DNA from: Bacteroidota bacterium
GTDB taxonomy: Bacteria; Bacteroidota; Bacteroidia; Bacteroidales; JABHKC01
Direction: 5' to 3'
Assembly (NCBI GenBank): GCA_018692315.1
Contig: JABHKC010000057.1
Location: forward strand, 1-45,969
Length of the DNA: 45,969 nucleotides
The notes beneath the pieces are model-generated. The model saw nothing but the letters and a program-made list of their open reading frames with translations. It was not told the origin of the DNA and searched no databases. The translations under genes and the position numbers were made by a program. Positions within the stretch are counted from its first letter, which is position 1. Each line of letters opens with the position of its first letter. Below are positions 182-44,982 of the stretch, piece after piece.

Positions 182-3100
182 CTACTGAACAAGCAATTTC
201 CCAGTTTTCAGGACACTGTTTTGAGATTTTATTTTAAATAAATATGTGCCGCTTGACAAATTTCCTCTATTGATTTCAATTTTATTTTCGTAAATCGAAT
301 AGTCAATTTTTTGATTTTTCCCGATTATATCGTAAATATCGAAACTTATTTCTTCAAAATTCTGCATATTTTTTAGGAATATAAATGCCTTGGTTTTTAT
401 GGGATTCGGATATATTACACAAAAATCTGAAGTATTTATTGCTGAAACTGAAGTATTAAAAATTATTACATTTTCGCAATAGGGCAAACTTGATCCATCG
501 GGGTTTGTTGCAGTCAGGCAAACATTATAAGTGCCGTCACCAATGAAACCATGAATTGGATTTTGCTCAACACTTACTGAATCATCTCCAAAACTCCACT
601 GCCATTCATCAGGATTGTTTGTTGATAGGTCTGTAAATTTCACCAAAGTGTCGTTCAAATATTCGTAACTAAAAATTGCATATGGGTTTGGATTTGTATT
701 TATATCGACATTCTGACAAAAAATATGGCTCCCGAGATAATTGCTCGCTGTGAGGCAAACTTCAAAAATTCCATTTGTAGAAAATGAATGTGTTGGATTT
801 TCGGTATTCGAAGAATTCCCATCTCCAAAATCCCAAAGCCACTCATCAGGAATTCCTGTTGATTGATCGCTAAAAATAACATTTGGCGAACTGCCAAGAT
901 TATATGCAAAATCGGCAACAGGTACAGAATATGCATCAATTTCAATTGTCTGACACAGAGTATCGTCGCCATATGAATTTTCTACAATCAAGCATACCTC
1001 ATAATTTCCATTTGTAGAATATGTATAAATAGGATTTAAGTCGTTCGAGGAGTTTCCATCTCCAAAATTCCAAGTCCATGAGTCGGGTATATTAATTATT
1101 GAATCGCTTGATTGGTCAAAAAATTCAATTTCCGGCGAATTTGAATTATTGTATGAAAAATCGGCAATAGGAAAGGTATAACAATTTATGACTACTGAAT
1201 TTGTTACGCATAGATTGTCGCTACCTTCAGAGTTTGTTACAGTTACACAAACATTATATGTTCCATTTTGAGAGTAAGTATGCAATGGATTTTCTTCAAT
1301 TCCAGTGTTGCCATCACCAAAATCCCAAAGCCAGGATGTTGGTATTCCTTGCGACATATCTGTAAATTGCACAATTGGACAATTGCTAGTATTATTTGTA
1401 AAATTTGCAGCCGGGACAGAGTAAATATTAATTTGTATAGTATCGCAAAAAGTATCGCTTCCTTCCATATTTGCCGAAGTCAGACAAACTATAAAAGTGC
1501 CATTTGTTAGAAATGTGTGAACAGGATCTTGTATATTGCTCGTTGTACCATCTCCAAAATCCCAAGTCCACTGTGTTGGCGAATTTGTAATGGAATCGCT
1601 CGACTCATCATAAAATTCGATGGTTGGCGAATTTGTTGAAATGTAAGAGAATCCGGCAGTTGGGGGAATATAACAATCAATAATTATGGTATCGCAAAAT
1701 GTGTTGGCACCAATTTGGTTATCGGCAGTTAAGCATACAATAAAAGTATCATTTTGGGTAAAAACATGTCCAGGATTCATAAAATAGCTTGTAATTCCAT
1801 CGCCAAAATCCCAAATCCATGAGTCTGCCGAATTTATTGTAGAATTAGAAATTTCGTTAACAAAATAGATGGCTGGCATACTGCTTGCATCGTAGGCAAA
1901 ATGCGCAATAGGTGCAGTATAAATATCTACAACAATGGTATCGCAAAATGAGGAAGAACCAAAATTATTGTAAACAAAAAGACAAACAGTATAACTTCCA
2001 TTAGTGCTGTAGGTGTGAACAGGATTTATCTCCGTACTTGTTGTGCCATCGCCAAAATTCCAACTCCATGTTAATGGATAATCAGTTGATAAATCGGTAA
2101 AAGAAATTGTTGGAGTAGAGTTTGTATCAATAGAAAATAAAGCTGTGGGTGGAGTATTTCCAACAATACTAACTGTACTATAAGCAGTATCGCTTCCAAT
2201 TCCATTTGAAGCAACCAATTGAACATTAAAATTTCCATTGGTGCTAAAGTGATGTATGGGATTTTGCTCGTAGCTGTATGTTCCATCATCGAAAACCCAT
2301 TCCCAATAAGTTGGGTTATCAATTGAAGTATCAGTAAAACTTACAATTGGATCGTTAATAGGATCGAAAATAAATCCTGCTGTGGGTACAACACAATTGT
2401 TTACTGTAACTATTTTGCAAATTGTATTGTCGCCGGCAAAATTTCCTGATGTCATGCAAACATTAAACGTTCCGTTGAAAGGAAAAACATGATTTGGATT
2501 TTGATCAGTGCTTGTAAATCCATCATCGAAATCCCAGAACCAGCTTGTTGGAACTGCCGAAGAGGCATCGGTAAAATTGATTATAGGATCGTTGTTCGAA
2601 AGGAAGGAAAAATCGGCTATAGGCGCTCCAGCAACTTGCGATGTTACAACTCTGAAATGAAAATCATCGTTTACAAGCATCCAGGCACTCGGAAAGAAAA
2701 AACTTCCGTAAATATATGAACGGTTTGCAATTCCTGGAGTTGTCTGGTTTAGCCAAACTTCTTGAGGAAAAGTATCTACTTCGAATCCAACAAAAATATC
2801 TCCTGAAATTCCTGCTAAAGAATCTGAAAATGGCCTTAAGTCAATTGTAGTAATTTGGTGAGGAAATTCTAAACTTGCAGCTGGAAAAACTTTAATTGGT
2901 TCAATCAAATCGGCTCCTGGAATTCCCGCATTTTCTGCCCAAATATGAACAATCATTGTGTCATTTGGCCGGTTTATATCGGTATAATTTCTAATTAGAG
3001 CATTAACCAAATCTGTGCTTCCGTTTAAAGAAAATCTCACAGCTGCCTTTTTTTCGGCTGATGTGGGAGCATAACCTACTGATGTAACAAAATCGACTTC

Positions 3101-3940
3101 GGCATTGTCATAACCAATATAATTTCCTGCAATATATTCGAAAACTTCAGAGGTATCCGTATTCAAACTATCTGTATTGTCGGTTGCAACAATTCTGTAA
3201 TCGACATAAGCTCCGGGCGTTTGTTGTGGAACTGTGTATAAATAATTGTCTCCGTTGGTATTTATTCCTTGAACAGTTTGGGCTGCAGGAACTCCATCTA
3301 CCGAATAAAATAAATATGTGTTAAACACTCCAGAAATATCAATGATTTCTGCTACAACAGTATGGTCGTACAATGAGCCTTCGTAATGAGCTTGAGGTTG
3401 ATGAATAATAAATGGTGCTGTCATATCCATCGGGTAGCTTGTAATCTTTAGCTCATCGATATACATACCGTCTGTGAAATATCCCTGGTCGGAAACAAAA
3501 CGAAAACGAACTTTCACATCCGAATTTCCAACAAATCCGGCAAGCGAAAATGTATATTTTACCCAAACTGTATCAACACCATTAAATGTAGTTACGACAT
3601 CCCATGATTGTCCATCGTCTGACGATGCTTCGAGATACATAAAATCGAAACCTAATTCAATATCGTATCGTGCATAAAACTCAATTAAACAATCGAATGC
3701 TCCATCCAAATCGAAACTATTTGCTAAAGTTGCTGTTGTAGAAACTAAATTTTGGTAGTTGCCATTCGGACTTTCACTCATAGAATATTGTGGCGAAATA
3801 AAATTCATTGTTGACAAACCCCAATCGCCTGTAAAAACCCAATTCGATGAATTATCGAAACTGTCGTATAATAATTGTGTTTGTGAGTATGAGCTATAGA
3901 TGCTTACAAAGATGCCTACTATCACTATTAACTTTTTCAT
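182..3940 (-). CDS. Secreted multi-PKD-domain protein with T9SS type A sorting domain
   Basis: A 1252-residue exported protein. It starts with a signal peptide (MKKLIVIVGIFVSIYSSYSQ). Residues about 24-170 look like a MAM/jelly-roll module, 175-275 like an Ig-type fold, and 276-435 are not recognised. Nine PKD repeats of about 80 residues follow (about 437-1160), each with a WxWxFGDG or WxWDFDDG core and a NPxHxF/Y segment. The last ~78 residues (from YPNPIKTK) form a typical T9SS type A C-terminal domain ending in GTYLFKIKSQNSVLKTGKLL. PKD proteins of this kind are normally carried across the outer membrane and anchored or released; an adhesive or glycan-binding role is inferred. No catalytic domain is visible. 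The stop is TAG at 182-184, and the neighbouring upstream gene is 263 nt away, so it is probably transcribed alone. Confidence 0.9.
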   Translation of the reverse strand: MKKLIVIVGIFVSIYSSYSQTQLLYDSFDNSSNWVFTGDWGLSTMNFISPQYSMSESPNGNYQNLVSTTATLANSFDLDGAFDCLIEFYARYDIELGFDFMYLEASSDDGQSWDVVTTFNGVDTVWVKYTFSLAGFVGNSDVKVRFRFVSDQGYFTDGMYIDELKITSYPMDMTAPFIIHQPQAHYEGSLYDHTVVAEIIDISGVFNTYLFYSVDGVPAAQTVQGINTNGDNYLYTVPQQTPGAYVDYRIVATDNTDSLNTDTSEVFEYIAGNYIGYDNAEVDFVTSVGYAPTSAEKKAAVRFSLNGSTDLVNALIRNYTDINRPNDTMIVHIWAENAGIPGADLIEPIKVFPAASLEFPHQITTIDLRPFSDSLAGISGDIFVGFEVDTFPQEVWLNQTTPGIANRSYIYGSFFFPSAWMLVNDDFHFRVVTSQVAGAPIADFSFLSNNDPIINFTDASSAVPTSWFWDFDDGFTSTDQNPNHVFPFNGTFNVCMTSGNFAGDNTICKIVTVNNCVVPTAGFIFDPINDPIVSFTDTSIDNPTYWEWVFDDGTYSYEQNPIHHFSTNGNFNVQLVASNGIGSDTAYSTVSIVGNTPPTALFSIDTNSTPTISFTDLSTDYPLTWSWNFGDGTTSTEINPVHTYSTNGSYTVCLFVYNNFGSSSFCDTIVVDIYTAPIAHFAYDASSMPAIYFVNEISNSTINSADSWIWDFGDGITSYFMNPGHVFTQNDTFIVCLTADNQIGANTFCDTIIIDCYIPPTAGFSYISTNSPTIEFYDESSDSITNSPTQWTWDFGDGTTSNIQDPVHTFLTNGTFIVCLTSANMEGSDTFCDTIQINIYSVPAANFTNNTSNCPIVQFTDMSQGIPTSWLWDFGDGNTGIEENPLHTYSQNGTYNVCVTVTNSEGSDNLCVTNSVVINCYTFPIADFSYNNSNSPEIEFFDQSSDSIINIPDSWTWNFGDGNSSNDLNPIYTYSTNGNYEVCLIVENSYGDDTLCQTIEIDAYSVPVADFAYNLGSSPNVIFSDQSTGIPDEWLWDFGDGNSSNTENPTHSFSTNGIFEVCLTASNYLGSHIFCQNVDINTNPNPYAIFSYEYLNDTLVKFTDLSTNNPDEWQWSFGDDSVSVEQNPIHGFIGDGTYNVCLTATNPDGSSLPYCENVIIFNTSVSAINTSDFCVIYPNPIKTKAFIFLKNMQNFEEISFDIYDIIGKNQKIDYSIYENKIEINRGNLSSGTYLFKIKSQNSVLKTGKLLVQ

Positions 3941-7043: not shown

Positions 7044-7721
7044 TTACAGATTTCCATTTGTTCTTATCTTTCTTTCTGCTGTTTGAGAAAACATTTTATA
7101 CAAACCTATATCAAAGTATAAATTATCAATTTCTTCTAAAACTATTTGCTCATTTTTAAATACACTAATCCAAATTGAATAATGGCCATTTAGTGAGGTT
7201 TTTGCAATTTGTTTTGCCATTTGCAGTATTGGTGCTTCTTTCCAATCGTTGTAACTTAATCTTGCTAAATTCCATGTCATTTGTCGCGAACGCCATCGAG
7301 TATCAGATTCCGTAGGGCTATTTTCTCCACCTGGAAGGCGGTCAAGTCCCATTAATTTAATTGAATTTTTAGTCAAAGTTTTTAGTGCATGAGATATGGA
7401 ATGCTTCGGTTTTATTTCTTTTGTTTCTGAATAGCTAAATGCTAAATCTGTGTTATCTATATCAGGCCACAAATAGTCAGATAGATTATCATTATGGTCG
7501 TTTTTTATGGTATTACAATATTTGCATGAAAGAAGAAAATTATTCCAATCGAGCACTTCCCCGCCTCTATTTCTTGGTAAAATGTGTTCAACTTCAATAC
7601 TATTCATTACTTTCATCTCGCAATAAGAGCAGTAATAACCAATTTTTTTAGCTAAGTCGTGCCTTGCCTCACCATATTTGGAATAAACTTTTGGTGCCTT
7701 ACCTTTATCTACCGGTCTCAT
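7044..7721 (-). CDS. ptuB: PtuB-like HNH endonuclease (Septu-type defence)
   Basis: A 225-residue HNH nuclease of the family found in Septu and in the retron Ec78 effector pair (TIGR02646-like). Two zinc CxxC pairs are visible at Cys31/Cys34 (YYCSYCE) and Cys66/Cys69 (LSCKYCN). Between them lie the catalytic EHILPR (His46) and the WNNFLLSC segment, completing the HNH core. The rest is helical with no other recognisable domain. Its ATG overlaps the TGA of the upstream ATPase gene by 4 nt (7718-7721), so the two are translationally coupled. In characterised Septu systems PtuB is the nuclease arm held by the PtuA ATPase and cleaves nucleic acid during phage infection. Pairing, order and motifs all support that assignment; activity is inferred. 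Confidence 0.85.
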   Translation of the reverse strand: MRPVDKGKAPKVYSKYGEARHDLAKKIGYYCSYCEMKVMNSIEVEHILPRNRGGEVLDWNNFLLSCKYCNTIKNDHNDNLSDYLWPDIDNTDLAFSYSETKEIKPKHSISHALKTLTKNSIKLMGLDRLPGGENSPTESDTRWRSRQMTWNLARLSYNDWKEAPILQMAKQIAKTSLNGHYSIWISVFKNEQIVLEEIDNLYFDIGLYKMFSQTAERKIRTNGNL

Positions 7722-9004
7722 TCTATAATGTTTTTACGCTCTTTTTTTATTTTTAATTGCTCTATTATACTATAAAATGCAGTATCATTTGCAAAAGGAA
7801 GCATTACTTCATCTAACTTATCCTTCATTTCATCTGTGTCAGTTCCCTCATTTACAGCTTTATAATATTCGCCGGCTACTTCAAACATTTTTTGTCTGGT
7901 TTTACTCCATTGAGGATTTTCTACATATTGTATTTCTTCTGCAATATCTTCGATACTCAAATTTATTGCACTCCCAATTTTTTCGACTGAATTATCTTTT
8001 AGCATAATTAATTGGTTTATACCTGTTTCTTGTATTAAAAAAGGGGAATGACTTGTTACGATAAATTGAATATTTGGGAAAGTATTTCTTAGAGAATGTA
8101 TAATTCTTTGTTGCCAGTCAGGGTGAAGATGTAGGTCTAACTCATCAATCAAAACTATTCCTCTTGTTTTTAACAGAGCATTATTTTTTAAATGAGGGTT
8201 TAATGTTACACATTTATAAGATATATCACCAATTATTGCCAAAAAATTTCTAGTTCCATCACTTAAGGAGTGAAAAGGAAGAATTCTTTTGTCTGCTAAT
8301 TGAATTTTTAGACCTTGTTGCCTATCAGGGTCAATTTCGTAAAAAATATTTACGCAATTAGGAACATTTGAAATAATTGCTTCTTTTACAAGCTCGAAGT
8401 TAATGTCATCTTTTCCTTTTTGATTTTTAGACAACTCTTTACCTTTGAACCATTTGAGAAATATTTTATAAGTAGATTTTGCTTCAAGACATCTGTTATA
8501 TGCTCTAAACCGTGATGCAATGTGGGTTTTTCCTTGCTTTTCTTCTTTATCACCGACTTCATCAAAAAGTCTTCCTGTGGTATAATAAACAAGTAAGGGT
8601 AAATATATTTCTGCGCCTTCTCTTATTTGATTATCAATGTCCTGAGCAAAACGTTTTATATCTTTGGCTTTTATAGAAGTTGTTTTATTTTTTAAGCCGT
8701 TTAGTTCTCTTGTCCATTTTAGTTTTTGATGATTTATTTCTCCCTCAGCTTCTATTATTACCGGAAAAAGATGTTCTTCATTGTATTCAAAATTATGAAT
8801 ATGAATGTCTTTGTTCAAAATATGTCGGGAATTCACATTTCTAATACCCAAAAAGAATGAACCAATTGCAACTGTAAGAGCTTCTAAAACAGCAGTTTTA
8901 CCACTTCCATTATTGCCTATTATAAGATTGAAATTTTTGTTAAAATCTAATTTCAAGTCTTTGTAACCTCTAAAATTTTTTAATCTAATATTTTTAATAT
9001 CCAT
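7718..9004 (-). CDS. ptuA: PtuA-like AAA/ABC-type ATPase (Septu-type defence)
   Basis: A 428-residue ATPase of the SMC/ABC-like AAA_21 class. Seen in order: RLKNFRGYKDLKLDF N-terminal strand typical of RecF/OLD-like ATPases; Walker A GNNGSGKT (30-37); an ABC-type signature LSDGTR (247-252); Walker B IVLIDELD with Glu288; and a switch His319 in TSHSP. There is no TOPRIM domain, which separates it from OLD nucleases. A C-terminal ~80-residue helical tail follows. It is directly followed by, and overlaps, the HNH gene ptuB. PtuA family members sense phage or nucleotide depletion and control PtuB. No reverse transcriptase or retron RNA is present nearby, so this is stand-alone Septu and not a retron. 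The ATG at 9002-9004 is directly followed by the conserved N terminus. Confidence 0.85.
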   Translation of the reverse strand: MDIKNIRLKNFRGYKDLKLDFNKNFNLIIGNNGSGKTAVLEALTVAIGSFFLGIRNVNSRHILNKDIHIHNFEYNEEHLFPVIIEAEGEINHQKLKWTRELNGLKNKTTSIKAKDIKRFAQDIDNQIREGAEIYLPLLVYYTTGRLFDEVGDKEEKQGKTHIASRFRAYNRCLEAKSTYKIFLKWFKGKELSKNQKGKDDINFELVKEAIISNVPNCVNIFYEIDPDRQQGLKIQLADKRILPFHSLSDGTRNFLAIIGDISYKCVTLNPHLKNNALLKTRGIVLIDELDLHLHPDWQQRIIHSLRNTFPNIQFIVTSHSPFLIQETGINQLIMLKDNSVEKIGSAINLSIEDIAEEIQYVENPQWSKTRQKMFEVAGEYYKAVNEGTDTDEMKDKLDEVMLPFANDTAFYSIIEQLKIKKERKNIIE

Positions 9005-28882: not shown

Positions 28883-28890
28883 CAAAAATA
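28883..28890 (-). promoter_or_regulatory. Candidate -7 element of the methyltransferase gene
   Basis: Minus-strand TATTTTTG matches TAnnTTTG about 40 nt before the ATG at 28843, giving a leader of roughly 33 nt. It overlaps the alternative TTG start, which argues against that start. No clear -33 element. Confidence 0.3.
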
Positions 28891-32228: not shown

Positions 32229-33230
32229 ATGAATGTTAATAAAGTCGAAATTCAAAAAAAAGGGTTTTTGGAAATTGATATAGATAAAAGTCTGAATTTA
32301 GTCTCCGAGATAAAAAAAATGAAAGAGGAGAAAAATGCTGTAATTTTGGCTCATTATTATCAAATCCCTGAAATTCAAGACATTGCAGACTTTGTTGGAG
32401 ATAGTCTTGCACTTTCACAAAAAGCTGCAGAAACCTATGCAGATATAATTGTTTTCGCCGGCGTTCATTTCATGGCTGAAACTGCAAAAAGTCTTTCACC
32501 TGAAAAAATGGTTTTAATCCCGGATTCTAAAGCGGGTTGTTCATTAGCCGATTCTTGTCCACCAAAAGAATTTAAGGAATTTAAAGAAAAATTTCCTGAG
32601 TATAAAGTAGTTTCATATGTAAATACAACATCTGAAATAAAAGCATTGACAGATGTTGTTTGCACTTCTACAAATGCAAAACTCATAATTGATAGTTTTC
32701 CTTTGGATGAAAAAATAATTTTTGCACCAGATAGAAATCTTGGTAATTATTTGAATAGTATTACAGGACGAAATATGAAACTTTGGGATGGAGCATGCCA
32801 CGTACATGAAGAATTCTCGCTTGAGAAAATTTTGGATATTAAACAAGAATATCCAAATGCTAAAATAATTGCTCATCCTGAATGTCAAAAGCAAATATTG
32901 ATTGTTGCCGATTATATAGGTTCAACTTCAGGATTATTAAAATTTATTGAAAATGATGATTGCGATACATTTATAGTGGTTACAGAATCTGGTATTCTTC
33001 ATCAAATGCAGAAAAGCAGACCAAACAAAAATTTTATTCCGGCTCCTCCAAACGATTCTACTTGTGCTTGCAACGATTGTAAATATATGAGATTACATAC
33101 AATAGAAAAATTATATACATGCTTGAAATACGAAATTCCGGAAGTTACACTTGACGAAGAGCTTAGAAAAAAAGCTGTTAGACCAATTATTAAAATGCTT
33201 GAAATTTCAAAAAAGCAGAACAAAATATAA
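32229..33230 (+). CDS. nadA: Quinolinate synthase NadA
   Basis: A 333-residue NadA, the iron-sulfur enzyme that condenses iminoaspartate with dihydroxyacetone phosphate to quinolinate in NAD synthesis. It shows AHYYQIPEIQDIADFVGDS, PDSKAGCSLADSC (cluster Cys near 104), WDGACHVHEEF (Cys190), HPEC, and the C-terminal CACNDCKYM group that supplies the third ligand. Length is normal. nadB and nadC are not in the window. The 3'-5' exonuclease gene follows after 20 nt and probably shares the transcript. An unusually long AT-rich leader region precedes it. Confidence 0.97.
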   Translation: MNVNKVEIQKKGFLEIDIDKSLNLVSEIKKMKEEKNAVILAHYYQIPEIQDIADFVGDSLALSQKAAETYADIIVFAGVHFMAETAKSLSPEKMVLIPDSKAGCSLADSCPPKEFKEFKEKFPEYKVVSYVNTTSEIKALTDVVCTSTNAKLIIDSFPLDEKIIFAPDRNLGNYLNSITGRNMKLWDGACHVHEEFSLEKILDIKQEYPNAKIIAHPECQKQILIVADYIGSTSGLLKFIENDDCDTFIVVTESGILHQMQKSRPNKNFIPAPPNDSTCACNDCKYMRLHTIEKLYTCLKYEIPEVTLDEELRKKAVRPIIKMLEISKKQNKI

Positions 33231-33903: not shown

Positions 33904-35778
33904 ATGTTGTTAAAGTATGATATTATAGTTGTAGGAGCTGGACATGCTGGTTGTGAAGCAGCTGCAGCAAGTGCAAATTTAGGTTCCAAAGTATTGTTGA
34001 TAACCATGGATTTAAGCAAAATTGCTCAAATGTCTTGTAATCCTGCTATTGGTGGAATAGCTAAAGGACAGATAGTTAGAGAGATAGATGCCCTTGGTGG
34101 ATATACAGGAATTGTAACTGACGATACTATGATACAATTCCGTATGCTAAATAAATCGAAAGGTCCTGCAATGTGGAGTCCAAGAGCTCAAAGTGATAGG
34201 CACGAATTTTCTAAAAAATGGAGAATTGAATTAGAAGGGATTCGGAATATCGATTTTTGGCAAGATATGGTTGATAGTTTGATTTTTGATAACAATACAA
34301 TTTCTGGAGTTAAAACTCGACAAGGTGTAAAGTTTTATTCAAAAGCTGTAATACTTACTAACGGAACATTTTTGAATGGATTGATGCATATTGGGAAAAA
34401 TAGAGTTATTGGTGGAAGAGATTCAGAAAATTCATCTATCGGAATTAGTGAACAATTGGCGGAATATGGGATTGAATCAGGTAAAATGAAAACCGGAACT
34501 CCAGCGAGAATTGATGGTAGAACAATAGATTTTTCAAAAATGCTTGAACAAAAAGGTGATGAAGAACCATCAAAATTTTCTTTTTTGAATGACACTAAAA
34601 ATATTGCTAAGCAAGAGAGCTGTTACATTACTTATACCAATGAAAATGTTCATGATATTTTAAGAGAAGGGTTTGAAGATTCTCCGCTATATAATGGAAC
34701 TATACAAGGGATAGGACCACGTTATTGCCCTAGCATAGAAGACAAAATTGTTACTTTTGCTGATAGAAATAAACATCAGTTGTTTTTAGAACCGGAAGGA
34801 CGAAAAACGATTGAATACTATATAAATGGATTTTCATCTTCATTGGCCTGGGATATTCAAATAAAAGCAATTAATAAAATTTATGGATTAGAGAATGCTA
34901 AAATATTTCGTCCTGGTTATGCAATTGAATACGATTATTTTTCACCAACTCAACTAAAAAGTACATTAGAAAGTAAATTCATTTCTAATTTGTTTTTTGC
35001 AGGTCAAATTAATGGTACTACTGGATATGAAGAAGCGGGAGCTCAGGGATTGATGGCCGGCATAAATGCTCATTTGTTGATAAATGAAAAAAAGGAATTT
35101 GTTTTGAAAAGAGACGAAGCCTACATAGGTGTCCTTATAGACGATTTAGTTACGAAAGGAGTTGATGAACCATACAGAATGTTCACTTCAAGAGCAGAGT
35201 ATAGAATTCTTTTGAGGCAAGACAACGCTGATATTAGGCTTACCGAAAAATCTTATAAATTAGGCTTAGCAACTGAAAAGAGGTATGATATTTTAGAAAA
35301 GAAAACTAAATCAATAAATGAAATAATTGCGATTTTTAATTCATTCAGTGTAAAACCTGAAGAAATAAATAAAAAATTGAAGGAATTAAAAACTTCTGAA
35401 ATTAAACAAAAAGTAAAATTAAGTAATATTATTTTGCGGCCTCAGGTTTCAATTTTAGATATTGCAAGTGTTATTTCTCCTATTCAAGAAATGATAACAA
35501 AATTGAAATCCAACTCTAATGAATATATTGAAGCTGCGGAAATATTAATGAAGTATTCAGGATATATTGATAGAGAAAGAAAAATTGCCGATAAACTAAA
35601 AAGACTTGAACATATTGAAATATCAGAGAATTTTGATTACAATAGAATATATTCTTTATCAACCGAGGCAAGGCAAAAATTAACAAAAATATTGCCAAGA
35701 ACAATTGGGCAGGCAAGTAGAATTTCTGGAGTATCACCATCTGACATAAATGTGCTTTTAGTCTTTCTTGGAAGATAA
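33904..35778 (+). CDS. mnmG: tRNA uridine-5-carboxymethylaminomethyl modification enzyme MnmG (GidA)
   Basis: A 624-residue FAD protein that, with MnmE, modifies U34 of certain tRNAs. The N-terminal FAD motif is VVGAGHAGCEAAAASANLG; the family signatures CNPAIGGIAKGQIVREIDALGG, GTFLNGLMHIG and GPRYCPSIEDKI (Cys for the nucleophile) follow, then AGQINGTTGYEEAGAQGL and the helical MnmE/tRNA-binding C terminus (about 545-624). Full length. A parS-type palindrome starts 6 nt after the stop codon. In many bacteria gidA lies close to the chromosomal origin and the par locus. Confidence 0.98.
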   Translation: MLLKYDIIVVGAGHAGCEAAAASANLGSKVLLITMDLSKIAQMSCNPAIGGIAKGQIVREIDALGGYTGIVTDDTMIQFRMLNKSKGPAMWSPRAQSDRHEFSKKWRIELEGIRNIDFWQDMVDSLIFDNNTISGVKTRQGVKFYSKAVILTNGTFLNGLMHIGKNRVIGGRDSENSSIGISEQLAEYGIESGKMKTGTPARIDGRTIDFSKMLEQKGDEEPSKFSFLNDTKNIAKQESCYITYTNENVHDILREGFEDSPLYNGTIQGIGPRYCPSIEDKIVTFADRNKHQLFLEPEGRKTIEYYINGFSSSLAWDIQIKAINKIYGLENAKIFRPGYAIEYDYFSPTQLKSTLESKFISNLFFAGQINGTTGYEEAGAQGLMAGINAHLLINEKKEFVLKRDEAYIGVLIDDLVTKGVDEPYRMFTSRAEYRILLRQDNADIRLTEKSYKLGLATEKRYDILEKKTKSINEIIAIFNSFSVKPEEINKKLKELKTSEIKQKVKLSNIILRPQVSILDIASVISPIQEMITKLKSNSNEYIEAAEILMKYSGYIDRERKIADKLKRLEHIEISENFDYNRIYSLSTEARQKLTKILPRTIGQASRISGVSPSDINVLLVFLGR

Positions 35779-35783
35779 ACAAA

Positions 35784-35801
35784 ATGTTCCACGTGGAACA
35801 T
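35784..35801. promoter_or_regulatory. parS: parS centromere-like site (ParB binding)
   Basis: ATGTTCCACGTGGAACAT is a perfect 18-bp palindrome whose 16-bp core TGTTCCACGTGGAACA agrees with the bacterial parS consensus TGTTnCACGTGnAACA. It lies in the gap between mnmG and the adenine deaminase gene. ParB/Spo0J binds such sites, spreads and loads SMC. Chance occurrence of this exact sequence in AT-rich DNA is very unlikely. No parA or parB gene is in the window, and I saw no second copy. Confidence 0.9.
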
Positions 35802-35852: not shown

Positions 35853-37496
35853 ATGAAAAATATTGAAACAATTATTTCAGGAAATATAGTTGATATTGTA
35901 AAACGAGAAATTTATAAAGGCAAAGTTTTTATTAAAAATGATAAAATAGAAAAGATAATAAAATGCGAAGTAGTTGAGAATGTCTATTTGCTACCTGGCT
36001 TAGTAGATTCTCATGTTCACATCGAAAGTTCAATGCTTACGCCGACAGAATTTGCTAAAATTGCTGTAAAACACGGAACAGTTGCAACAATTTCTGATCC
36101 TCACGAAATTGCAAATGTATTGGGAATTCAAGGTATAAATTTCATGATAGATGACATTAAGGATGTTCCATTCAAAATGTTTTTTGGAGCTCCATCGTGT
36201 GTTCCAGCAACTGATTTTGAAACTTCTGGATATAAATTGAATGATACTGATATAGACAAATTATTGTCAAGAAATGACATTTATTATTTATCTGAAATGA
36301 TGAATTTTCCGGGTGTTATTTATAATGACAAAAGCGTGATTAGTAAAATTGAAAGTGCAAAAAAATATAATAAAAAAATTGATGGACATGCTCCAATGCT
36401 TTCAGGCAAAGATTTGGAAAAATATATTTATGCAGGAATAAGTACAGATCACGAATGTTCAACAATTATTGAAGCCGAAGAAAAATTGAAACTTGGAATG
36501 AAAATCCAAATTCGGGAGGGTAGTGCTGCCAAAAATTTTGAGAATCTTCATAAACTAATTGATAAGTTTCCTAATGAAATTATGCTTTGCAGTGATGATA
36601 TTCATCCTGACAATTTGGTAGAGGGTCACATAAATAAATTAATAAAAAAGGGAATTGATAAGAAAATCGACATTTTTAATTTACTTCAATCGGCTACATT
36701 AAATCCAATAAAACATTACAATTTAAATATAGGATTGCTTCAGGAAGGAAATTCTGCCGATTTAATAATGATTGATAATTTGGATTCATTCTATGTTTTG
36801 AAAACTATCATTAATGGCAATATAGTTTACGAAAACGGACATTCTAAGATTGAATCGAAAAATAAAATTTCTATCAATAATTTTAATTCAAAAACTATAT
36901 CGGAAGAAGATATTATCGTAGCTGCAAAATCAAAAAAAATTAGAGTAATTGAAGCAATTGACGGAGACTTATTTTCAAACGAAAAAATTTGTGAGGCAAA
37001 AATTGAAAATGAATGTGTAGTTCCAGACATAAATAATGATATACTTAAAGTTGTAGTACTTAACAGATACAAAATAGAAAAACCTATTGTAGGATTTATT
37101 TATGGATTCGGATTAAATCATGGAGCTATTGCAAGCAGTATTGCACACGATAGCCATAATATTATCGCTGTTGGAGCAGATGATACTAGTATTGTAAGAG
37201 CAATAAATACAATTGTCAATTCCAAAGGCGGAATTGTTGTTATAGATAAGAATGAAGAATTTGTGCTTCAATTGGAAATTGCCGGATTAATGTCTGCAAA
37301 AAATGGAAATGAAGTGGCTGAGAAGTATAAAAACATTGACAAAAAAGCCAAGAATTTAGGAAGCAAATTGTCCGCACCATTTATGACTTTATCGTTCATG
37401 TCATTATTGGTTATACCTAAACTAAAAATTGGAGACAAAGGATTGTTCGATGGAACTAAGTTTCAATTCACCAATATTTTTGTTGATGATGACTAA
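35853..37496 (+). CDS. ade: Adenine deaminase
   Basis: A 547-residue adenine deaminase of the amidohydrolase superfamily, which converts adenine to hypoxanthine for purine salvage. The metal-binding DSHVHIESS (52-60), the SDPHEIANVLG segment, DGHAPMLSGKDL, STDHEC and LCSDDIHPDNL with its catalytic Asp are all present. The C-terminal ade-specific domain contains GFGLNHGAIASSIAHDSHNI. Full length and intact. uvrC starts within its last codons (11-nt overlap), so the two are co-transcribed despite unrelated roles. Confidence 0.95.
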   Translation: MKNIETIISGNIVDIVKREIYKGKVFIKNDKIEKIIKCEVVENVYLLPGLVDSHVHIESSMLTPTEFAKIAVKHGTVATISDPHEIANVLGIQGINFMIDDIKDVPFKMFFGAPSCVPATDFETSGYKLNDTDIDKLLSRNDIYYLSEMMNFPGVIYNDKSVISKIESAKKYNKKIDGHAPMLSGKDLEKYIYAGISTDHECSTIIEAEEKLKLGMKIQIREGSAAKNFENLHKLIDKFPNEIMLCSDDIHPDNLVEGHINKLIKKGIDKKIDIFNLLQSATLNPIKHYNLNIGLLQEGNSADLIMIDNLDSFYVLKTIINGNIVYENGHSKIESKNKISINNFNSKTISEEDIIVAAKSKKIRVIEAIDGDLFSNEKICEAKIENECVVPDINNDILKVVVLNRYKIEKPIVGFIYGFGLNHGAIASSIAHDSHNIIAVGADDTSIVRAINTIVNSKGGIVVIDKNEEFVLQLEIAGLMSAKNGNEVAEKYKNIDKKAKNLGSKLSAPFMTLSFMSLLVIPKLKIGDKGLFDGTKFQFTNIFVDDD

Positions 37497-39306
37497 CCGA
37501 AAAGCTCTTCATAAATTTAAAAATACAATACAATTCTTACCAGAAAAGCCTGGCGTTTATCAATATCTAAATAACAAATCGGAAATTATTTATATTGGGA
37601 AAGCTAAGAATTTAAAAAAGCGAGTATCCTCATATTTCAATAGAAATTCAGAAAATACTAAAACAGAAATTCTTGTTTCAAAGATATTTGAAATTAAGCA
37701 TATTGTTGTAGAAACTGAGCAAGATGCCTTGTTATTAGAAAATAGTTTAATCAAAAAGTATCAGCCAAGATACAATGTTTTGCTAAAAGATGGTAAAACA
37801 TTCCCATGGATTTGTATTAAAAATGAAAGATTTCCACGAGTTTTTAGTACTAGAAATTACACTAAGGATGGCTCTATTTATTTTGGTCCATACACTTCAG
37901 GAAGGTTAGTAAAAATCATTCTTGAATTATTCAAACAAATGTACAAATTGCGAAATTGTAGGTTCGATTTGTCGAAAAAAAATATTGAAGAAAAGAAGAT
38001 AAAAGTTTGTTTAGAGTTTCATATAGGAAATTGTTATGCTCCTTGCATAGCAAAACAAAGCGAAGAAACTTATCTTTCTAATATTGATGAAATTAAAAAC
38101 ATTCTTAAGGGAAATATTTCGTCTGTAATAAAAGATTTGAAGAAAAAAATGATAATTCTTGCAGGTGAATTTGAGTTTGAATTAGCACAGGATATTAAGG
38201 AAAAAGTTAAACTCTTAGAAAATTATCAGAGCAAATCTACAGTAGTAAATCCAAATATTGATAATGTCGATGTTTTTTCAATAGTAGAAAAAGAAAATTA
38301 TGCATATGTAAATTTTCTAAAAGTATTGAATGGTTCAATCATTCAGGCACATACAATTGAGTTGAAAAAAAAGCTTGATGAAACGGAAAAAGAGTTGCTA
38401 TTGCTGGCCATTACTGATATAAGAAATAGGCTTTTTAGTAATTCAAAAGAAATAATCGCTCCTTTCAATTTAGATTTTTCTATTGAGAATGTGAATGTTG
38501 TAGTTCCAAAAATTGGTGATAAAAAAAAACTTTTAGATCTTTCAACTAGAAATGCTAAATATTTTTTGCATGAGAAGCAACAACAGCTTCTGGTATCAAA
38601 GCATAAATCAAGCAAGAATAGAATTCTTGAAACAATAAAAAAGGATCTTCATTTATCAGAAATTCCTGAGCAGATTGAGTGTTTTGATAATTCAAATATA
38701 TCTGGCGAAAATCCTGTTGCAGCTTGCGTTGTGTTTAAAGATGCCAAACCTGCAAAAAGCGAATACCGACACTTCAATATTAAAACTGTAGAAGGAATAA
38801 ATGATTTTGCCTCTATGCAAGAAATTGTTTATCGGCGCTATAAAAGATTATTGGACGAAAAGAAAAAATTACCGCAGCTCATTGTAATTGATGGCGGAAA
38901 AGGGCAGTTAAATGCTGCTTTAAACAGTCTTAGAAAATTGAACCTGCAAAATATAATTCCGGTTATTGGAATTGCGAAAAGACTTGAAGAAATATTTTTT
39001 CCAGACGATCCTATTCCATTATACTTGGATAAAACTTCTGAAACATTAAAAATTATTCAACAATTAAGAAATGAGGCTCATAGATTTGGCATTGAATTTC
39101 ATAGGCAAAAACGCTCCAATAATTTCATACAGTCAGAATTATCTAATATTCAAGGAATTGGACCAAAAACTATACAAAAACTTTTGTCTAAATTTGGTTC
39201 AGTTGAAAGAATTATTAATGCAGAACCTGCTGATATTAAAGAGATTATAGGAAAGGATAAATTTGATAAGCTGGAGTTTTATTTTAAAAATAAGAAAATA
39301 GAATAA
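37486..39306 (+). CDS. uvrC: Excinuclease ABC subunit C (UvrC)
   Basis: A 606-residue UvrC, the dual-incision nuclease of nucleotide excision repair. Domains in order: GIY-YIG nuclease (PGVYQYLNNKSEIIYIGKAK), a cysteine-containing segment (CLEFHIGNCYAPC), the UVR motif that meets UvrB (near residue 205-240), the RNase H-like second nuclease (IECFDNSNISGENPVAACV, and LIVIDGGKGQLNAA), and helix-hairpin-helix repeats at the end (IQGIGPKTIQKLLSKFGS). An in-frame TTG further upstream would add 19 residues deep inside ade; the tandem ATGs at 37486/37489 give the normal N terminus and are preferred. Two strong hairpins follow the stop. Confidence 0.95.
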   Translation: MMTNRKALHKFKNTIQFLPEKPGVYQYLNNKSEIIYIGKAKNLKKRVSSYFNRNSENTKTEILVSKIFEIKHIVVETEQDALLLENSLIKKYQPRYNVLLKDGKTFPWICIKNERFPRVFSTRNYTKDGSIYFGPYTSGRLVKIILELFKQMYKLRNCRFDLSKKNIEEKKIKVCLEFHIGNCYAPCIAKQSEETYLSNIDEIKNILKGNISSVIKDLKKKMIILAGEFEFELAQDIKEKVKLLENYQSKSTVVNPNIDNVDVFSIVEKENYAYVNFLKVLNGSIIQAHTIELKKKLDETEKELLLLAITDIRNRLFSNSKEIIAPFNLDFSIENVNVVVPKIGDKKKLLDLSTRNAKYFLHEKQQQLLVSKHKSSKNRILETIKKDLHLSEIPEQIECFDNSNISGENPVAACVVFKDAKPAKSEYRHFNIKTVEGINDFASMQEIVYRRYKRLLDEKKKLPQLIVIDGGKGQLNAALNSLRKLNLQNIIPVIGIAKRLEEIFFPDDPIPLYLDKTSETLKIIQQLRNEAHRFGIEFHRQKRSNNFIQSELSNIQGIGPKTIQKLLSKFGSVERIINAEPADIKEIIGKDKFDKLEFYFKNKKIE

Positions 39307-39621: not shown

Positions 39622-42600
39622 ATGGTGAAATTTTTACTTAAAATTTTATTGATTATTTCTTTAGTTCTATATGCTAATTTTATGTGTATTGGTCAAATTC
39701 CTGTACATGTTTCAGTTTATTATGGAATTGATGCTAGTGAATGTTCATGGAACATTTGGAACAATTCTGATAGCACTATCGTTTTAAGCGACAATGGTTC
39801 AGCAATCAACAATTCATTTTCTTTCAATGACACAATAAATTTAGCACCTGGCGAATACACTTTCAATGCCTACGATTCGTATGGAGATGGCTGGAATGGA
39901 GGAGGTTGGTATCAAATTTCACCACTTTTTGGAACTTCCACAAACCAAGTGTATTTTTCAAATGGAAATATTCAGAATACCGTATTTTCAGTTTTTCCTA
40001 TGACTGTGATTGACATGGGAATAGTTGCGTGGAATTCCCCTATATCGGGAATTTCTTTAGATTCAAATGAAACAGTTACAGTTCAGATACAAAATTTTGG
40101 ACTTGCTACCCAATCGAATTTTACTCTATCTTATTCCATCGACAATGGCAATTCTTTTCAAATCGAGAATGTAAATCAAAACATAGAATTTGGAGAATCA
40201 TATATTTTTTCGTTTCAACAAACCGCCCATTTTTCAACATATGGATCATATAATTGCATAGTAGCAATAAGTGCAAGTGGAGATTCTAATAGTTCAAATG
40301 ATACTTTAAATATTGAAATATCGAATTTCGAAATAATATCAAATTTTCCATGGGCAGAGAATTTTAGTAATGGAATTAGTTTTGGTTGGAGAAATGAAGG
40401 AATAGAAAATTGGATTATTGAGAATGATTACTTGTATTGTGATTTTTGGAATTGGGCAAATTCTGAAAATGCTACACTTATTTCTCCTCCGCTACAAATT
40501 GGTAATTCTAGTGTCTTAAGTTTCGATTGGTCGAGTTCCAGTTTTTCGATATACGATTTAAGCGAATTTAATATTTATATTTCGACAGACACTTGTAGTT
40601 CGTGGCAAATGGTTTGGGAGAAATCCGGAACAGATTTGAACTCCAATGATGGAGCAACAAATACTACACCTGGAAGTTTCATTTCAGAAGTTATTGATTT
40701 AACAAACTATATAAATAATCTCATTTTTATTAAATTTGAGGGAGTCTCTGGCTGGGGTCCAAATTTGTATCTCGACAATATTTCAATAGAAGAATACGAT
40801 CAAGTAGATTTATCAATTGAAGAAATAATTTCTCCACAATCCGGATGCGGATTAAGCGATCAAGAGGAAATTTCTATTTTGATAAAAAATAGCGGTTTAT
40901 TTGAAATATCAGATTTTGAAGTTTCATTTAGCATTAATAATGGAAATAGTTTTATTACAGAAATAGTAACAGATACAATTTTTGCTGGAGATAGTCTCCA
41001 ATATTCATTTAATCAAACTATTGATATTTCTTTATCTGGAGAATATCAAGCAATATCGGGTGTTTCGTTTATCTATGATTTTAATTCTCAAAATAATTTA
41101 ATTCACGATACAATTGTGTCTGTAGAAAGCTTAAGTTTTTCGGGCTTAGAAATTGGATTGGGCTTAGTTCCGGTTTATGTTCAGGTATTTTATGATGCGA
41201 ATTGGTCATTCGAAAATTCTTGGGAAATATTAAACGAAAATGGTGACACAATTTTATTTTCCACAACCGGAACAAATTTATCAAACGATTTTTCATATAA
41301 TGATACAATAAACTTACCAATTGGGAATTACACTTTTGTAGCTCACGATTTGTATGGAGACGGTTGGGGAGGTGCAAATAGTCAGAGTTGGTACGAAATT
41401 TCATCTTCCTATGGAAATTCAACAGGTTATCAAACATTTAATCAAGGAAACATACAAACATCAACATTTTCAGTTGGAGGAGTAATTCCATTTTGCGATA
41501 ATGCTGAACCTGTTGTTTTAATCGGAAATCTGCAATCTGCAATTTTCTCCGGTAGCGGAATATCCGATAATACATTTTATCCTTCAAATGCTGGATTTGG
41601 CTATCATACAATTTTGTATTCTTTCGTTAACAACGAAGTTAGTTGTATCGATTCTCAATCAGTAATTATTGCCGAAGCTCCAACTTTAGAATTGGGTTTA
41701 AATCAAAATTTATGTGAAGATGAAAGCTTAACTATTGATGCCGGAATAAGTGATTATTATTTGTGGAGCGATGGTTCAACCAACCAATTAATAAATATTG
41801 GCACGAGCGGAACCTATTCAGTTACTATCTCATTAGAAAACGATTGTGAAGCAAGCGATCAAATTGAAGTTGAATTTTCTCCACTACCTTCTATAAATTT
41901 AGGAAACAACCAGGAGATTTGTGATGGAGATACTTTAATTCTAAACGCCGGGAATGATTTGTCTTATTTTTGGAATACAGGATCAATCAATCAGTATATT
42001 AACATCAATCAACAAGGGACATTTGCAGTTACTGTTACCGATTCAGCAGGCTGCGAAAACTTTGATACTATTATTGTTTCAGTAAATCCAATACCAAATG
42101 TATTTTTAGGATATGATATAAGCATATGTGGAAACGAAATTGTAACAATTGTAGCTGATTCGGGATATTCATATTTATGGAACACAGGATCAAACAATCA
42201 ATCAATTTCTGTTGTTGAGAGCAACACATATTCAGTTACTGTTTCTGATTCTAATTTGTGCCAGAACCACGATGAAATAAATGTTTCATTCAATCCAATA
42301 CCAACCATAAATTTGGGAAATGATACCTCAGTTTGTGATAATGACTCTTTACAAATATCTATTAGTGGATTTAGCAGTTATTTGTGGAACACTGGGACAT
42401 CAAATCAAACTATCGATATAAACCAAACTGGCAACTATTCTTTGACAATAACCGATATTTATAATTGTGTAGCTACTGATAGTATTTATGTTACATTTCT
42501 AAATACTCCAATAGTCGATTTGGGCGAAAATCTCACTTTTTGTGAAAATGAAATTTGTATTCTGACTGCTGACAGCGGAGACACATATATTTGGAATACG

Positions 42601-44982
42601 AATTCTATAAATCAAAATATAATAGTTTTTGAATCTGGAAATTATTCAGTTACAGTTTCGAATAACAATGGATGCTCTGATTTCGATGAAATAAATGTTG
42701 TATTCAATCCTTTACCAATAATAGATTTAGGAGAAAATCAAACGATTTGTGATGGTGATAGCATTATTTTAGATGTTGGTTTTTTTAGTGAATATCTTTG
42801 GACGAATAATGTTTGGACCGACACAAATCAAACTATTTCAATATCAGAAAATGATTTTATATATGTTACTGTTATTGATAATAATAATTGTCAGGCAAAT
42901 GATGAAATTGAAATAAATGTCCAAATTTTACCTTCAGTTGAATTAGGTTCAGATACATTTTTGTGTGCGGGAAATACAGTATCGCTAAATGCGGAAGGTT
43001 CACACAATTATTTTTGGAATACAGGTGAAACAACTCAAGTCATTCATGCACTAAATTCAGGTGTTTATAGTGTGATTATTTCAGATTCAGTTGGTTGCGA
43101 ATCAATTGATAGTATAAATGTTTTGTTTTATACCTTGCCTAATTTAGAACTTGGAGACAATCAATTAATCTGTAATAATTCTTCATATGAAATTGAAGCG
43201 GGAGATTTTTCTTCATATTTATGGAATAATGGAACCATCGGTCAAAGTCTTATAGTAGCACAAAATGGAATTTATTCTGTTTTAGTTACAGACTCTAACA
43301 ATTGCCAAATGACTGATACCATAAGCATTTTATTTGGCCAAAATCCAATTATATATTTAGGAGCAGACCAAACAGTTTGCGAGGAAGACAGTTTTGTTAT
43401 TGATGCAGGTACAGGTTTCACTTATTTATGGAACAATACTTACACATCTCAAATTATAGATATTTCTCAAACAGGAATTTATTCCGTTACTATTACTGAT
43501 TCTATTGGATGTGAAGCCTCAGATACAATTTCAATTATTGTAAATCTTTCACCAATACTTGATTTAGGTGCCGATCAAGGAGCTTGCCAAGGCACTGCAA
43601 TTGGTTTAAATGCTGGATTCCATGATGCTTATTTTTGGAACACCGGGCAAACTACACAAACAATATCAGTTTTTGCAACAGGATTGTATGAAGTTACTGT
43701 ATCAAACTCTTTTGGCTGTCAGGCATCTGATGAAATTAATATTACAATAAATCCTTATCCTGTAATTGATCTTGGACCAAATCTTGTTGGATGCGAAGGT
43801 TCGTATATAACTCTTGATCCTGGTGGGTCCGGATATTTGTTTTATTGGAGTAATGGAATTATTGCACCAACACTTAACGTAACTGAGCCAGGATTATATT
43901 CAGTGATTGCAACAGATATGTATGGATGTATGGCAACAGACTACATCTATGTTTCATTTGTTACTTCTCCAACTGTCGATTTGGGAACAAGTCAAATAAT
44001 TTGTGAGGGTATCTCTACGATTATAAGTCCGGGAAATTTTGTTTCTTACTTATGGAATAACGGAGAAACAAGTGATTCATTGGAGATATTTATAGCTGGA
44101 GAATATTCTGTTTCTGTAACCGACATTAATGGATGTTTAGGAGCCGACACCTTAACACTTACAGTAAATCCATCACCAAATGTTGATTTAGGGATCGATT
44201 TATCTATTGACACAACACAAAGTATTGTTATAGATGCTGGCTCAGGATTTAATTCATATTTGTGGAGTAATTTTTCAAGCAATCAAACAATTTCTATTCA
44301 AGGCAATTTGCTTTCTATAGGAAACTATACATATTCAGTTGTGGTAGCAAACAATTTTGGATGTTTTGGATACGATACTATTAATATTTCTGTATTGCCT
44401 CCTGTTTCATCTCAAATAATCGTATTACCACAGGGCTGGAGCATGTTTTCTACATACATTGATCCAAATTTGCCTGATATTGCTGATGTTTTGAGTACTA
44501 TAAGTTCTGAAATCGTTTTAGTGAAAAGCGACATGGGCTTACTATTTTGGCCAAGCTTTGGAATAAACCAAATTGGCAATTTAACTATTGGTAATGCATA
44601 TTTAATCAAAGTCAATATTAGTCAGGCCTTTAGCGTAGATGGAATAGCCCTAATTCCTGAAAGCACACCTGTTAACATTCCTCAAGGATGGAGCATGCTG
44701 GGATATCTTAGACAGAGTGTAGCTCCAATAAGCACTATGTTAAATTCAATAGAACCCAGTATTTATTTAGTAAAAAATTCTATGGGATTGCTCTATTGGC
44801 CTCAATATGGAATTAATACTATTGGTACAATGGTTCCGGGAGAAGGTTACCAAATTAATCTTTATAATAGTGAAATATTTTCATACCCTGCAAATAATCA
44901 AAATAATTACAAAACTGGAAGTTTAAATCAAAATAATATAATAAAATTTAGAAATATAACAAATACAAACAAAAAAATCTAA
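39622..44982 (+). CDS. Giant secreted protein with thirteen ~69-residue repeats
   Basis: A 1786-residue exported protein. A signal peptide (about 1-25) precedes a beta domain PVHVSVYYG...YDSYGDGWNGGGWYQIS (28-115) that occurs a second time at about 515-605 (DLYGDGWGG). Between them are two CARDB-like domains (about 133-237 and 393-505) flanking a MAM-like module (about 240-390). Residues 688-1593 are thirteen tandem repeats. The C terminus has two copies of a QGWSM...LLxWPxxGIN-IG domain (about 1605-1745). Unlike the PKD protein at the left of the window, no T9SS C-terminal domain is visible; the protein ends in an Asn-rich, basic tail. Function is probably adhesion or surface structure; no enzyme domain was found. 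Confidence 0.88.
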   Translation: MVKFLLKILLIISLVLYANFMCIGQIPVHVSVYYGIDASECSWNIWNNSDSTIVLSDNGSAINNSFSFNDTINLAPGEYTFNAYDSYGDGWNGGGWYQISPLFGTSTNQVYFSNGNIQNTVFSVFPMTVIDMGIVAWNSPISGISLDSNETVTVQIQNFGLATQSNFTLSYSIDNGNSFQIENVNQNIEFGESYIFSFQQTAHFSTYGSYNCIVAISASGDSNSSNDTLNIEISNFEIISNFPWAENFSNGISFGWRNEGIENWIIENDYLYCDFWNWANSENATLISPPLQIGNSSVLSFDWSSSSFSIYDLSEFNIYISTDTCSSWQMVWEKSGTDLNSNDGATNTTPGSFISEVIDLTNYINNLIFIKFEGVSGWGPNLYLDNISIEEYDQVDLSIEEIISPQSGCGLSDQEEISILIKNSGLFEISDFEVSFSINNGNSFITEIVTDTIFAGDSLQYSFNQTIDISLSGEYQAISGVSFIYDFNSQNNLIHDTIVSVESLSFSGLEIGLGLVPVYVQVFYDANWSFENSWEILNENGDTILFSTTGTNLSNDFSYNDTINLPIGNYTFVAHDLYGDGWGGANSQSWYEISSSYGNSTGYQTFNQGNIQTSTFSVGGVIPFCDNAEPVVLIGNLQSAIFSGSGISDNTFYPSNAGFGYHTILYSFVNNEVSCIDSQSVIIAEAPTLELGLNQNLCEDESLTIDAGISDYYLWSDGSTNQLINIGTSGTYSVTISLENDCEASDQIEVEFSPLPSINLGNNQEICDGDTLILNAGNDLSYFWNTGSINQYININQQGTFAVTVTDSAGCENFDTIIVSVNPIPNVFLGYDISICGNEIVTIVADSGYSYLWNTGSNNQSISVVESNTYSVTVSDSNLCQNHDEINVSFNPIPTINLGNDTSVCDNDSLQISISGFSSYLWNTGTSNQTIDINQTGNYSLTITDIYNCVATDSIYVTFLNTPIVDLGENLTFCENEICILTADSGDTYIWNTNSINQNIIVFESGNYSVTVSNNNGCSDFDEINVVFNPLPIIDLGENQTICDGDSIILDVGFFSEYLWTNNVWTDTNQTISISENDFIYVTVIDNNNCQANDEIEINVQILPSVELGSDTFLCAGNTVSLNAEGSHNYFWNTGETTQVIHALNSGVYSVIISDSVGCESIDSINVLFYTLPNLELGDNQLICNNSSYEIEAGDFSSYLWNNGTIGQSLIVAQNGIYSVLVTDSNNCQMTDTISILFGQNPIIYLGADQTVCEEDSFVIDAGTGFTYLWNNTYTSQIIDISQTGIYSVTITDSIGCEASDTISIIVNLSPILDLGADQGACQGTAIGLNAGFHDAYFWNTGQTTQTISVFATGLYEVTVSNSFGCQASDEINITINPYPVIDLGPNLVGCEGSYITLDPGGSGYLFYWSNGIIAPTLNVTEPGLYSVIATDMYGCMATDYIYVSFVTSPTVDLGTSQIICEGISTIISPGNFVSYLWNNGETSDSLEIFIAGEYSVSVTDINGCLGADTLTLTVNPSPNVDLGIDLSIDTTQSIVIDAGSGFNSYLWSNFSSNQTISIQGNLLSIGNYTYSVVVANNFGCFGYDTINISVLPPVSSQIIVLPQGWSMFSTYIDPNLPDIADVLSTISSEIVLVKSDMGLLFWPSFGINQIGNLTIGNAYLIKVNISQAFSVDGIALIPESTPVNIPQGWSMLGYLRQSVAPISTMLNSIEPSIYLVKNSMGLLYWPQYGINTIGTMVPGEGYQINLYNSEIFSYPANNQNNYKTGSLNQNNIIKFRNITNTNKKI
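41683..44403 (+). repeat. Thirteen tandem ~207-nt units encoding Ig-like repeats
   Basis: Within the giant protein each unit encodes about 69 residues with the pattern xLGxxQxxCxGDxxxLxAG...YLWNTGxxxQxIxVxxxGxYSVTVTDxxGCxxxDxIxVxxNPxP. Units differ at the DNA level, so this is an old protein repeat and not a recent DNA amplification. Each unit has two cysteines except the last, which lacks the first. Unit 6 carries a short insertion and unit 13 a longer one. Confidence 0.9.

Follow-up and report, generated by a model that had tools for sequence, protein, structure and literature searches.

What is the palindrome that directly follows mnmG in this Bacteroidota genome, and does it mark the part of the chromosome where replication starts? 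The window, by which we mean the whole stretch of 45,969 nucleotides analysed here, carries it in the gene order spermidine-synthase-like gene, nadA, 3'-5' exonuclease gene, mnmG, ade and uvrC. The features that matter for the question are the following.

33904 to 35778, plus strand: mnmG (gidA), subunit of a tRNA-modification enzyme (Pfam GIDA 4e-163, SAM_GIDA_C, GIDA_C_1st)
35784 to 35801, no strand assigned: parS, predicted ParB loading site; 18-bp perfect palindrome ATGTTCCACGTGGAACAT with a 16-bp core at 35785 to 35800
35853 to 37496, plus strand: adenine deaminase gene (ade), the downstream neighbour (Pfam Adenine_deam_C 7.9e-59)
37429 to 39306, plus strand: uvrC, next downstream after ade (Pfam UvrC_RNaseH_dom 3e-56); a mechanical open reading frame with a TTG start

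The mechanical reading frames of ade and uvrC share 68 nt, and the real start of uvrC is probably later than the listed TTG. Elsewhere in the window, the minus strand at 7044-9004 holds a Septu-type pair made of a PtuB-like HNH nuclease (7044-7721, 1.9e-65) and a PtuA-like ATPase (7718-9004, 1.4e-130). Two large PKD-domain proteins are encoded at 182-3940 on the minus strand and at 39622-44982 on the plus strand; the former ends in a Por_Secre_tail sorting domain, which suggests type IX secretion.

An earlier sequence-only reading had described a perfect 18-bp palindrome with an exact parS core, placed 6 nt past the mnmG stop, with no second copy in sight. The palindrome is indeed identical to its own reverse complement, and with A on both flanks it is not extendable. 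The inner 16-mer TGTTCCACGTGGAACA matches the parS consensus TGTTNCACGTGNAACA with no mismatch. The stop codon TAA of mnmG occupies 35776-35778 and is followed by the five-base spacer ACAAA, so that the palindrome starts on the sixth base past the stop. This is the only exact parS match in the window and also the only one in the assembly (4,979,366 bases in 248 contigs), where a reversed-pattern control gave none. The earlier remark on the missing second copy thus extends to all 248 contigs, and instead of sites scattered evenly around the chromosome we found a single exact one. On base composition, the expectation for an exact match is 1.3e-4 per window and 0.014 per 4.98 Mb.

Looser matches add little. 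A scan of the window with up to 3 mismatches gave one further match, with 3 mismatches, at 32492; since at least two such matches also occurred in 50 of 100 shuffles of the window, only the exact match is meaningful. In the assembly, 23 sites with at most 2 mismatches were counted, the exact one included, as compared with 14 for the reversed control, which is near background. A single parS-like site with one mismatch was found, TGTTGCACGTGCATCA at C2:20299, with G and C at positions 5 and 12. It was rejected as a second parS: it does not fit the refined motif TGTTYCACGTGRAACA, and G and C at these positions occur in 0 of 194 tabulated mnmG-linked sites. The only other perfect 16-bp palindrome in the window, at 28884, consists of A and T alone. 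As far as the letters tell, the site is probably the single parS copy of this genome.

The genome encodes the protein partners as well. It has one ParB_N protein, with the domains ParB_N, HTH_ParB and ParB_C and the motifs GERRxRA and ENIQR; its gene lies on contig C24. The same contig carries ParA (C24:41659-42189, 1.5e-68, in a 263-aa open reading frame). Two genes stand between parA and parB at this place (L378:1656-6586), one for an SMEK-domain protein (328 aa) and one for a DUF2326 protein (571 aa) that matches PADLOC PDC-M68B at 6e-66. The two inserted genes form a candidate defence module. Elsewhere in the order, the gap between ParA and the ParB match measures 6-173 nt at the 29 further ParB loci that were examined. 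Judged by their sequences, all parts of a ParABS system are present in the genome.

Could the site instead belong to a Noc-like member of the ParB family, or to an unrelated regulator? The ParB of this genome scores as close to Noc as to ParB when compared with PDB chains, a near tie of 4.9e-48 for Noc and 7.3e-48 for ParB/Spo0J. The Noc-binding site (NBS) differs from the CACGTG core of parS, and it is the latter that the palindrome contains. Because the two scores are almost equal, it is the residues and not the score that tell ParB from Noc. R173 and G201 are described as absolutely conserved in ParB, parS-specific and changed in Noc in the sections of PMC7383237 used here. In a sequence alignment, through which this numbering was transferred, the equivalent residues are R and G in our protein, and Q and R in the Noc chain. 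With these specificity residues the Noc-binding site was rejected, and with only one ParB_N protein encoded, we consider a Noc-like or foreign regulator very improbable.

The position of the site proved to be as telling as its letters. Among the 148 genomes of the order to which the window belongs, a MnmG match was obtained in 141 and not in 7, and 130 mnmG loci were read; those left out (G003, G008, G020, G046, G072, G088, G100, G114, G124, G133 and G142) were mostly partial or low-ranked matches. We defined a near zone of 300 nt on the upstream and 700 nt on the downstream side of mnmG, in which a site may overlap the stop codon, and the gene starts in these counts were extrapolated from tblastn. 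A parS-like site with at most 2 mismatches was present in the near zone of 122 of the 130 loci, exact in 84, with one mismatch in 31 and with two in 7; an exact site anywhere in the retrieved stretch was present in 86. When only sequence outside the gene was scanned, 11 of the 44 loci that had no exact site showed more than 2 mismatches; once overlap with the stop codon was allowed, 8 of 130 loci were without a site. In L085, L086 and L119 the best site shares two bases with the stop of mnmG. The near zones, 130,557 nt in total, contained 195 sites; the more distant sequence (338,635 nt) had 8 and the mnmG genes themselves (242,236 nt) had none. A chance palindrome or functionless relic, expected 0.014 times per genome, would hardly be kept at the same place by 122 of 130 relatives, and the probability of this explanation is next to nil.

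The site stays with mnmG and not with the gene that happens to follow it. Where 1.4 kb or more of downstream sequence was available (122 loci), it was found in 38/38 with ade, in 35/35 with uvrC only and in 43/49 with neither; being present with each neighbour and mostly with none, it tracks mnmG. The linkage extends beyond the order. Among mnmG loci of named Bacteroidota in GTDB (the best 80 of 584 candidates), the near zone held an exact site in 50 and a site with at most one mismatch in 65, leaving 15 that had none; the loci with a site include records of Bacteroidales, Flavobacteriales, Cytophagales, Sphingobacteriales and Chitinophaga. A reverse search that started from the sites found mnmG within 1.5 kb in 23 of 29 loci of the wider class.

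Exact sites as such are common and few per genome. They occur in 94 of the 148 genomes of the order (reversed control, 1/148), at 0 to 3 per genome, and in the form with Y and R they occur in 221 of 296 genomes of a phylum sample (reversed control, 1/296). Relatives with at least two sites have them mostly within about 2 kb of one another, among the places listed; the sites are clustered rather than scattered. A single exact site, the genes for ParA and ParB and the recurrence of the site beside mnmG in relatives all give strong support to the parS identity claimed by the sequence-only reading. We put the probability that the palindrome is an ordinary chromosomal parS, i.e. the centromere of a ParABS segregation system, at about 0.9.

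A site that hugs a gene so closely raises another explanation, namely that the palindrome serves mnmG as a regulatory or RNA element, such as a terminator, a hairpin or an operator, and merely resembles parS. Sites lie downstream of mnmG in 117 of the 130 genomes and upstream in 38; 26 sites with at most one mismatch begin on the base directly after the stop, and among the 38 upstream sites listed, 31 end no more than 20 nt before the gene's start. The palindrome can also fold into a 7-bp stem with a 4-nt loop at -8.4 kcal/mol. Against this, the fold is no better than that of shuffled sequences (z -0.71, 44 of 200 as good), and the sole terminator-like match is on the minus strand, which is the wrong one for mnmG. 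An intrinsic terminator of mnmG was rejected, with no plus-strand stem-loop and T-run and with a fold at this z value. No Rfam match was found in the window. Sites flank the gene on both sides in 33 of the 130 genomes, and sometimes sites lie away from mnmG.

The pattern of variation among the sites speaks in the same sense. The near-zone sites give the motif TGTT[CT]CACGTG[AG]AACA. Positions 5 and 12, which were unconstrained in the scan, are solely C or T and G or A, respectively, in 194/194 tabulated sites; the remaining columns of the motif are biased by the mismatch limit. These two positions need not pair, as 31 of the 195 sites combine C with A and 35 combine T with G, and the central CACGTG, where an RNA hairpin would have its loop, is almost constant. 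With pairing at 5 and 12 unneeded and the would-be loop hardly varying, a protein dimer that reads two DNA half-sites fits better than an RNA hairpin. An element of mnmG that only looks like parS is thus unlikely in the extreme, if a little less so than the Noc-like alternative, and the reading as parS is retained.

The 8 loci that had no near-zone site (G070, G051, G141, G082, G078, G001, G108 and G064) were followed up. A ParB match was missing in 3 of these 8 genomes (G051, G070 and G082) as compared with 3 of the 122 that have a near site (G029, G030 and G128), giving a Fisher p of 0.003 in a post hoc test on draft genomes; on this post hoc test, absence of the site and absence of ParB are associated. 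The ParB matches, taken at 1e-25, include fragments (G117 and G125) and one weak match that is maybe not an orthologue (G120). A genome-wide scan with at most one mismatch recovered two sites on one contig in G064, one site 94 kb from mnmG in G078 and one doubtful site each in G082 and G070, and none in G108, G141, G001 and G051. Three of these genomes (G108, G141 and G001) have a ParB match and no such site anywhere; G113 also has a ParB match and no such site, with a 2-mismatch site at mnmG. In G001 a palindrome-like sequence with 4 mismatches, GTTTTCACGTGAAAAG, adjoins the start of mnmG (L170). Because G001 and G108 are of one genus and keep the ParB match, we suspect that parS may have drifted in them.

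The site itself is an ordinary parS, and it is its anchoring to mnmG that is of interest. In the literature searched, outside which the parS survey of Livny (2007) falls, we found no mention of a link between parS and mnmG/gidA; that survey, the main one, may already note the linkage, and we claim no priority. We further considered whether the linkage is functional and ancient in Bacteroidota, the sites lying flush at both ends of mnmG either since ParB occupancy affects mnmG expression or since mnmG is a privileged platform for ParB landing and spreading. We hold this to be a doubtful proposition, with odds well on the side against it. If true, it would couple a tRNA-modification gene to chromosome segregation in a lineage that lacks Smc-ScpAB loading and has dnaA elsewhere.

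Does the site then lie near the origin, as the sequence-only reading had concluded from the habit of parS sites to cluster there? In the genome itself, parS is on C57, parAB on C24 and dnaA on C217 among the 248 contigs. Too fragmented for a skew test, it leaves the matter to its relatives, from which we infer that origin proximity of this window is likely. parAB and dnaA, to which the earlier reading had looked for landmarks, were thus both located, but they serve poorly as such here. In chromosomes with both loci on one long contig, taking the shorter way round where it is known, the distance from parS/mnmG to dnaA is about 0.75 Mb in G203, 1.0 Mb in G316 and G352, 1.2 Mb in G119, 1.4 Mb in G264 and G413, 1.7 Mb in G280 and 2.5 Mb in G143, whose contig covers 5.26 of 5.6 Mb. 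Neither parAB nor dnaA was close to parS in the chromosomes examined, the exception being a parB 54 kb from mnmG in G119. In G119 and G144 several extra weak matches to the DnaA domain (PF00308), about 250 aa long and with identical scores, are repeated around the genome and perhaps stem from a mobile element.

The skew origin was determined from spaced 20-kb samples of GC skew with a two-arm model, at a resolution of 200-300 kb. The fitted origin lies 126-366 kb from parS/mnmG and 2139-2379 kb from dnaA in G143, 74-254 and 953-1133 kb in G119, 7-187 and 562-782 kb in G203, and 117-377 and 999-1259 kb in G264, respectively. It is therefore closer to parS/mnmG than to dnaA in all four fully sampled chromosomes, of which G119 and G264 have weak fits; shuffled samples reached the fit in 0, 4, 0 and 8 of 100 for G143, G119, G203 and G264, respectively. 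The product of the four chance probabilities, taken at the largest distances, is 3e-4. In two of the four the best skew origin is offset from parS, with a score of 1.294 as compared with 1.070 at parS in G143 and 0.697 as compared with 0.569 in G264. The partly sampled G280 fits less well, with a sign change of skew at 935-1210 kb, that is 0.38-0.65 Mb from parS.

At short range, the signs of an origin were missing. No consistent flip of skew on the 9-kb scale was seen at mnmG, with downstream skew exceeding upstream skew in 26 of 58 named-relative loci. No cluster of DnaA boxes was found in the window when scanned with the DnaA-box consensus: the densest 500 nt has 4 boxes with at most one mismatch, and shuffles (mononucleotide, within 200-nt blocks) average 4.35. 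Over the whole window, GC skew goes from below to above zero in the region of about 14 to 32 kb; this turn was set aside because gene strand changes there too.

These data bear on a further alternative, in which the palindrome is a genuine parS and the window is not especially near the origin, the site staying with mnmG as rearrangements move the pair away. The fragmentation into 248 contigs, the lack of a consistent local flip, the skew origins that lie 0.1-0.65 Mb off parS in some relatives and the sites away from mnmG in G064 and G078 all leave room for it. The four skew fits, with their product of 3e-4, oppose it, and so does published work. An oriC at mnmG was predicted by Ori-Finder together with GC skew in two Flavobacteriaceae, Mariniflexile litorale (PMC11278836) and Algorimicrobium bowmanii (PMC12843772), and dnaA misfits the skew plot of the former, according to the parts of these papers considered here; in PMC11278836 the legend of Figure 3 labels oriC and ter opposite to its text. 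The sections of PMC10197239 used here combine parS clusters with skew to locate the origin of 12 gut strains, among them two Bacteroidetes, and report that dnaA is not always at the origin. We regard a window far from the origin as unlikely, while granting it somewhat more weight than a functional tie between parS and mnmG. The origin-proximal placement proposed by the sequence-only reading is likely to stand on the relatives' skew (4/4) and the two oriC papers; a tight placement does not, given the local skew (26/58) and the missing DnaA-box cluster. Bacteroidota keep the site at the side of mnmG, close to where GC skew places the origin and at a long distance from dnaA, with origin proximity being approximate and drawn from sampled relatives.

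How would such a site act? As described in PMC7333895, in the part consulted, ParB nucleates at parS and spreads, and ParA moves the complex. By analogy with the family, a dimer of the ParB encoded on C24 would read the half-sites TGTTYCAC and GTGRAACA, close as a CTP clamp and slide into the flanking DNA. The partition complex would be built over mnmG and neighbouring genes, and its movement by ParA would separate the two newly copied regions. The site would be the sole nucleation point, as the assembly contains no other exact parS. A search for the kleisin ScpA was positive in 0 of 10 genomes (this genome and nine relatives) as compared with 9 of 14 control genomes, so that Smc-ScpAB loading at the site is not expected. 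Most of the same ten genomes have ParB and parS, yet no ScpA was found in any of them. As ScpA was found in none of the ten, in line with the sections of PMC10197239 used here, we propose an action that does without the usual condensin: in the lineages tested, parS would work through ParA and ParB alone or with an unknown condensin.

A parS as such is to be expected in a genome of this kind. A centromere at the side of mnmG in most of the sampled Bacteroidota provides a simple marker of the segregation centre, and probably of the origin, which is useful where dnaA misleads, in draft genomes and metagenome bins alike. Two questions can now be put to the test: why parS accompanies mnmG and not dnaA or parAB, and what role ParB-parS has where the usual condensin was not found (ScpA, 0/10; PMC10197239, in the sections used).

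Compared with ParB-parS of Caulobacter and Spo0J/ParB-parS of Bacillus, the system described here shares the pattern of the 16-bp palindromic core, the N-terminal, HTH and C-terminal dimerisation domains of ParB, and ParA; the origin-proximal position is a probable further likeness. It differs in having a single exact site hugging mnmG, in parA and parB that lie on another contig and are split by a two-gene insertion, in dnaA that is far from parS in the relatives examined, and in ScpA, which was not found. The parS clusters of Bacteroides caecimuris and Muribaculum intestinale, studied by Hi-C (PMC10197239), also resemble it: in the sections used here, parS and skew mark the origin, dnaA is not always there and no known condensin was found, as is the case here; those sections draw no link between the clusters and mnmG, unlike our analysis. 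Conversely, for Mariniflexile litorale and Algorimicrobium bowmanii the parts considered of PMC11278836 and PMC12843772 place oriC at mnmG and do not mention ParB sites, unlike the present case. The ancestral origin gene set, given in the consulted portion of PMC2099444 as dnaA-dnaN, rnpA-rpmH, yidC-yidD, gidA-gidB and parA-parB, makes gidA (mnmG) a classical companion of the origin; here parS stays with mnmG, and parAB and dnaA are elsewhere.
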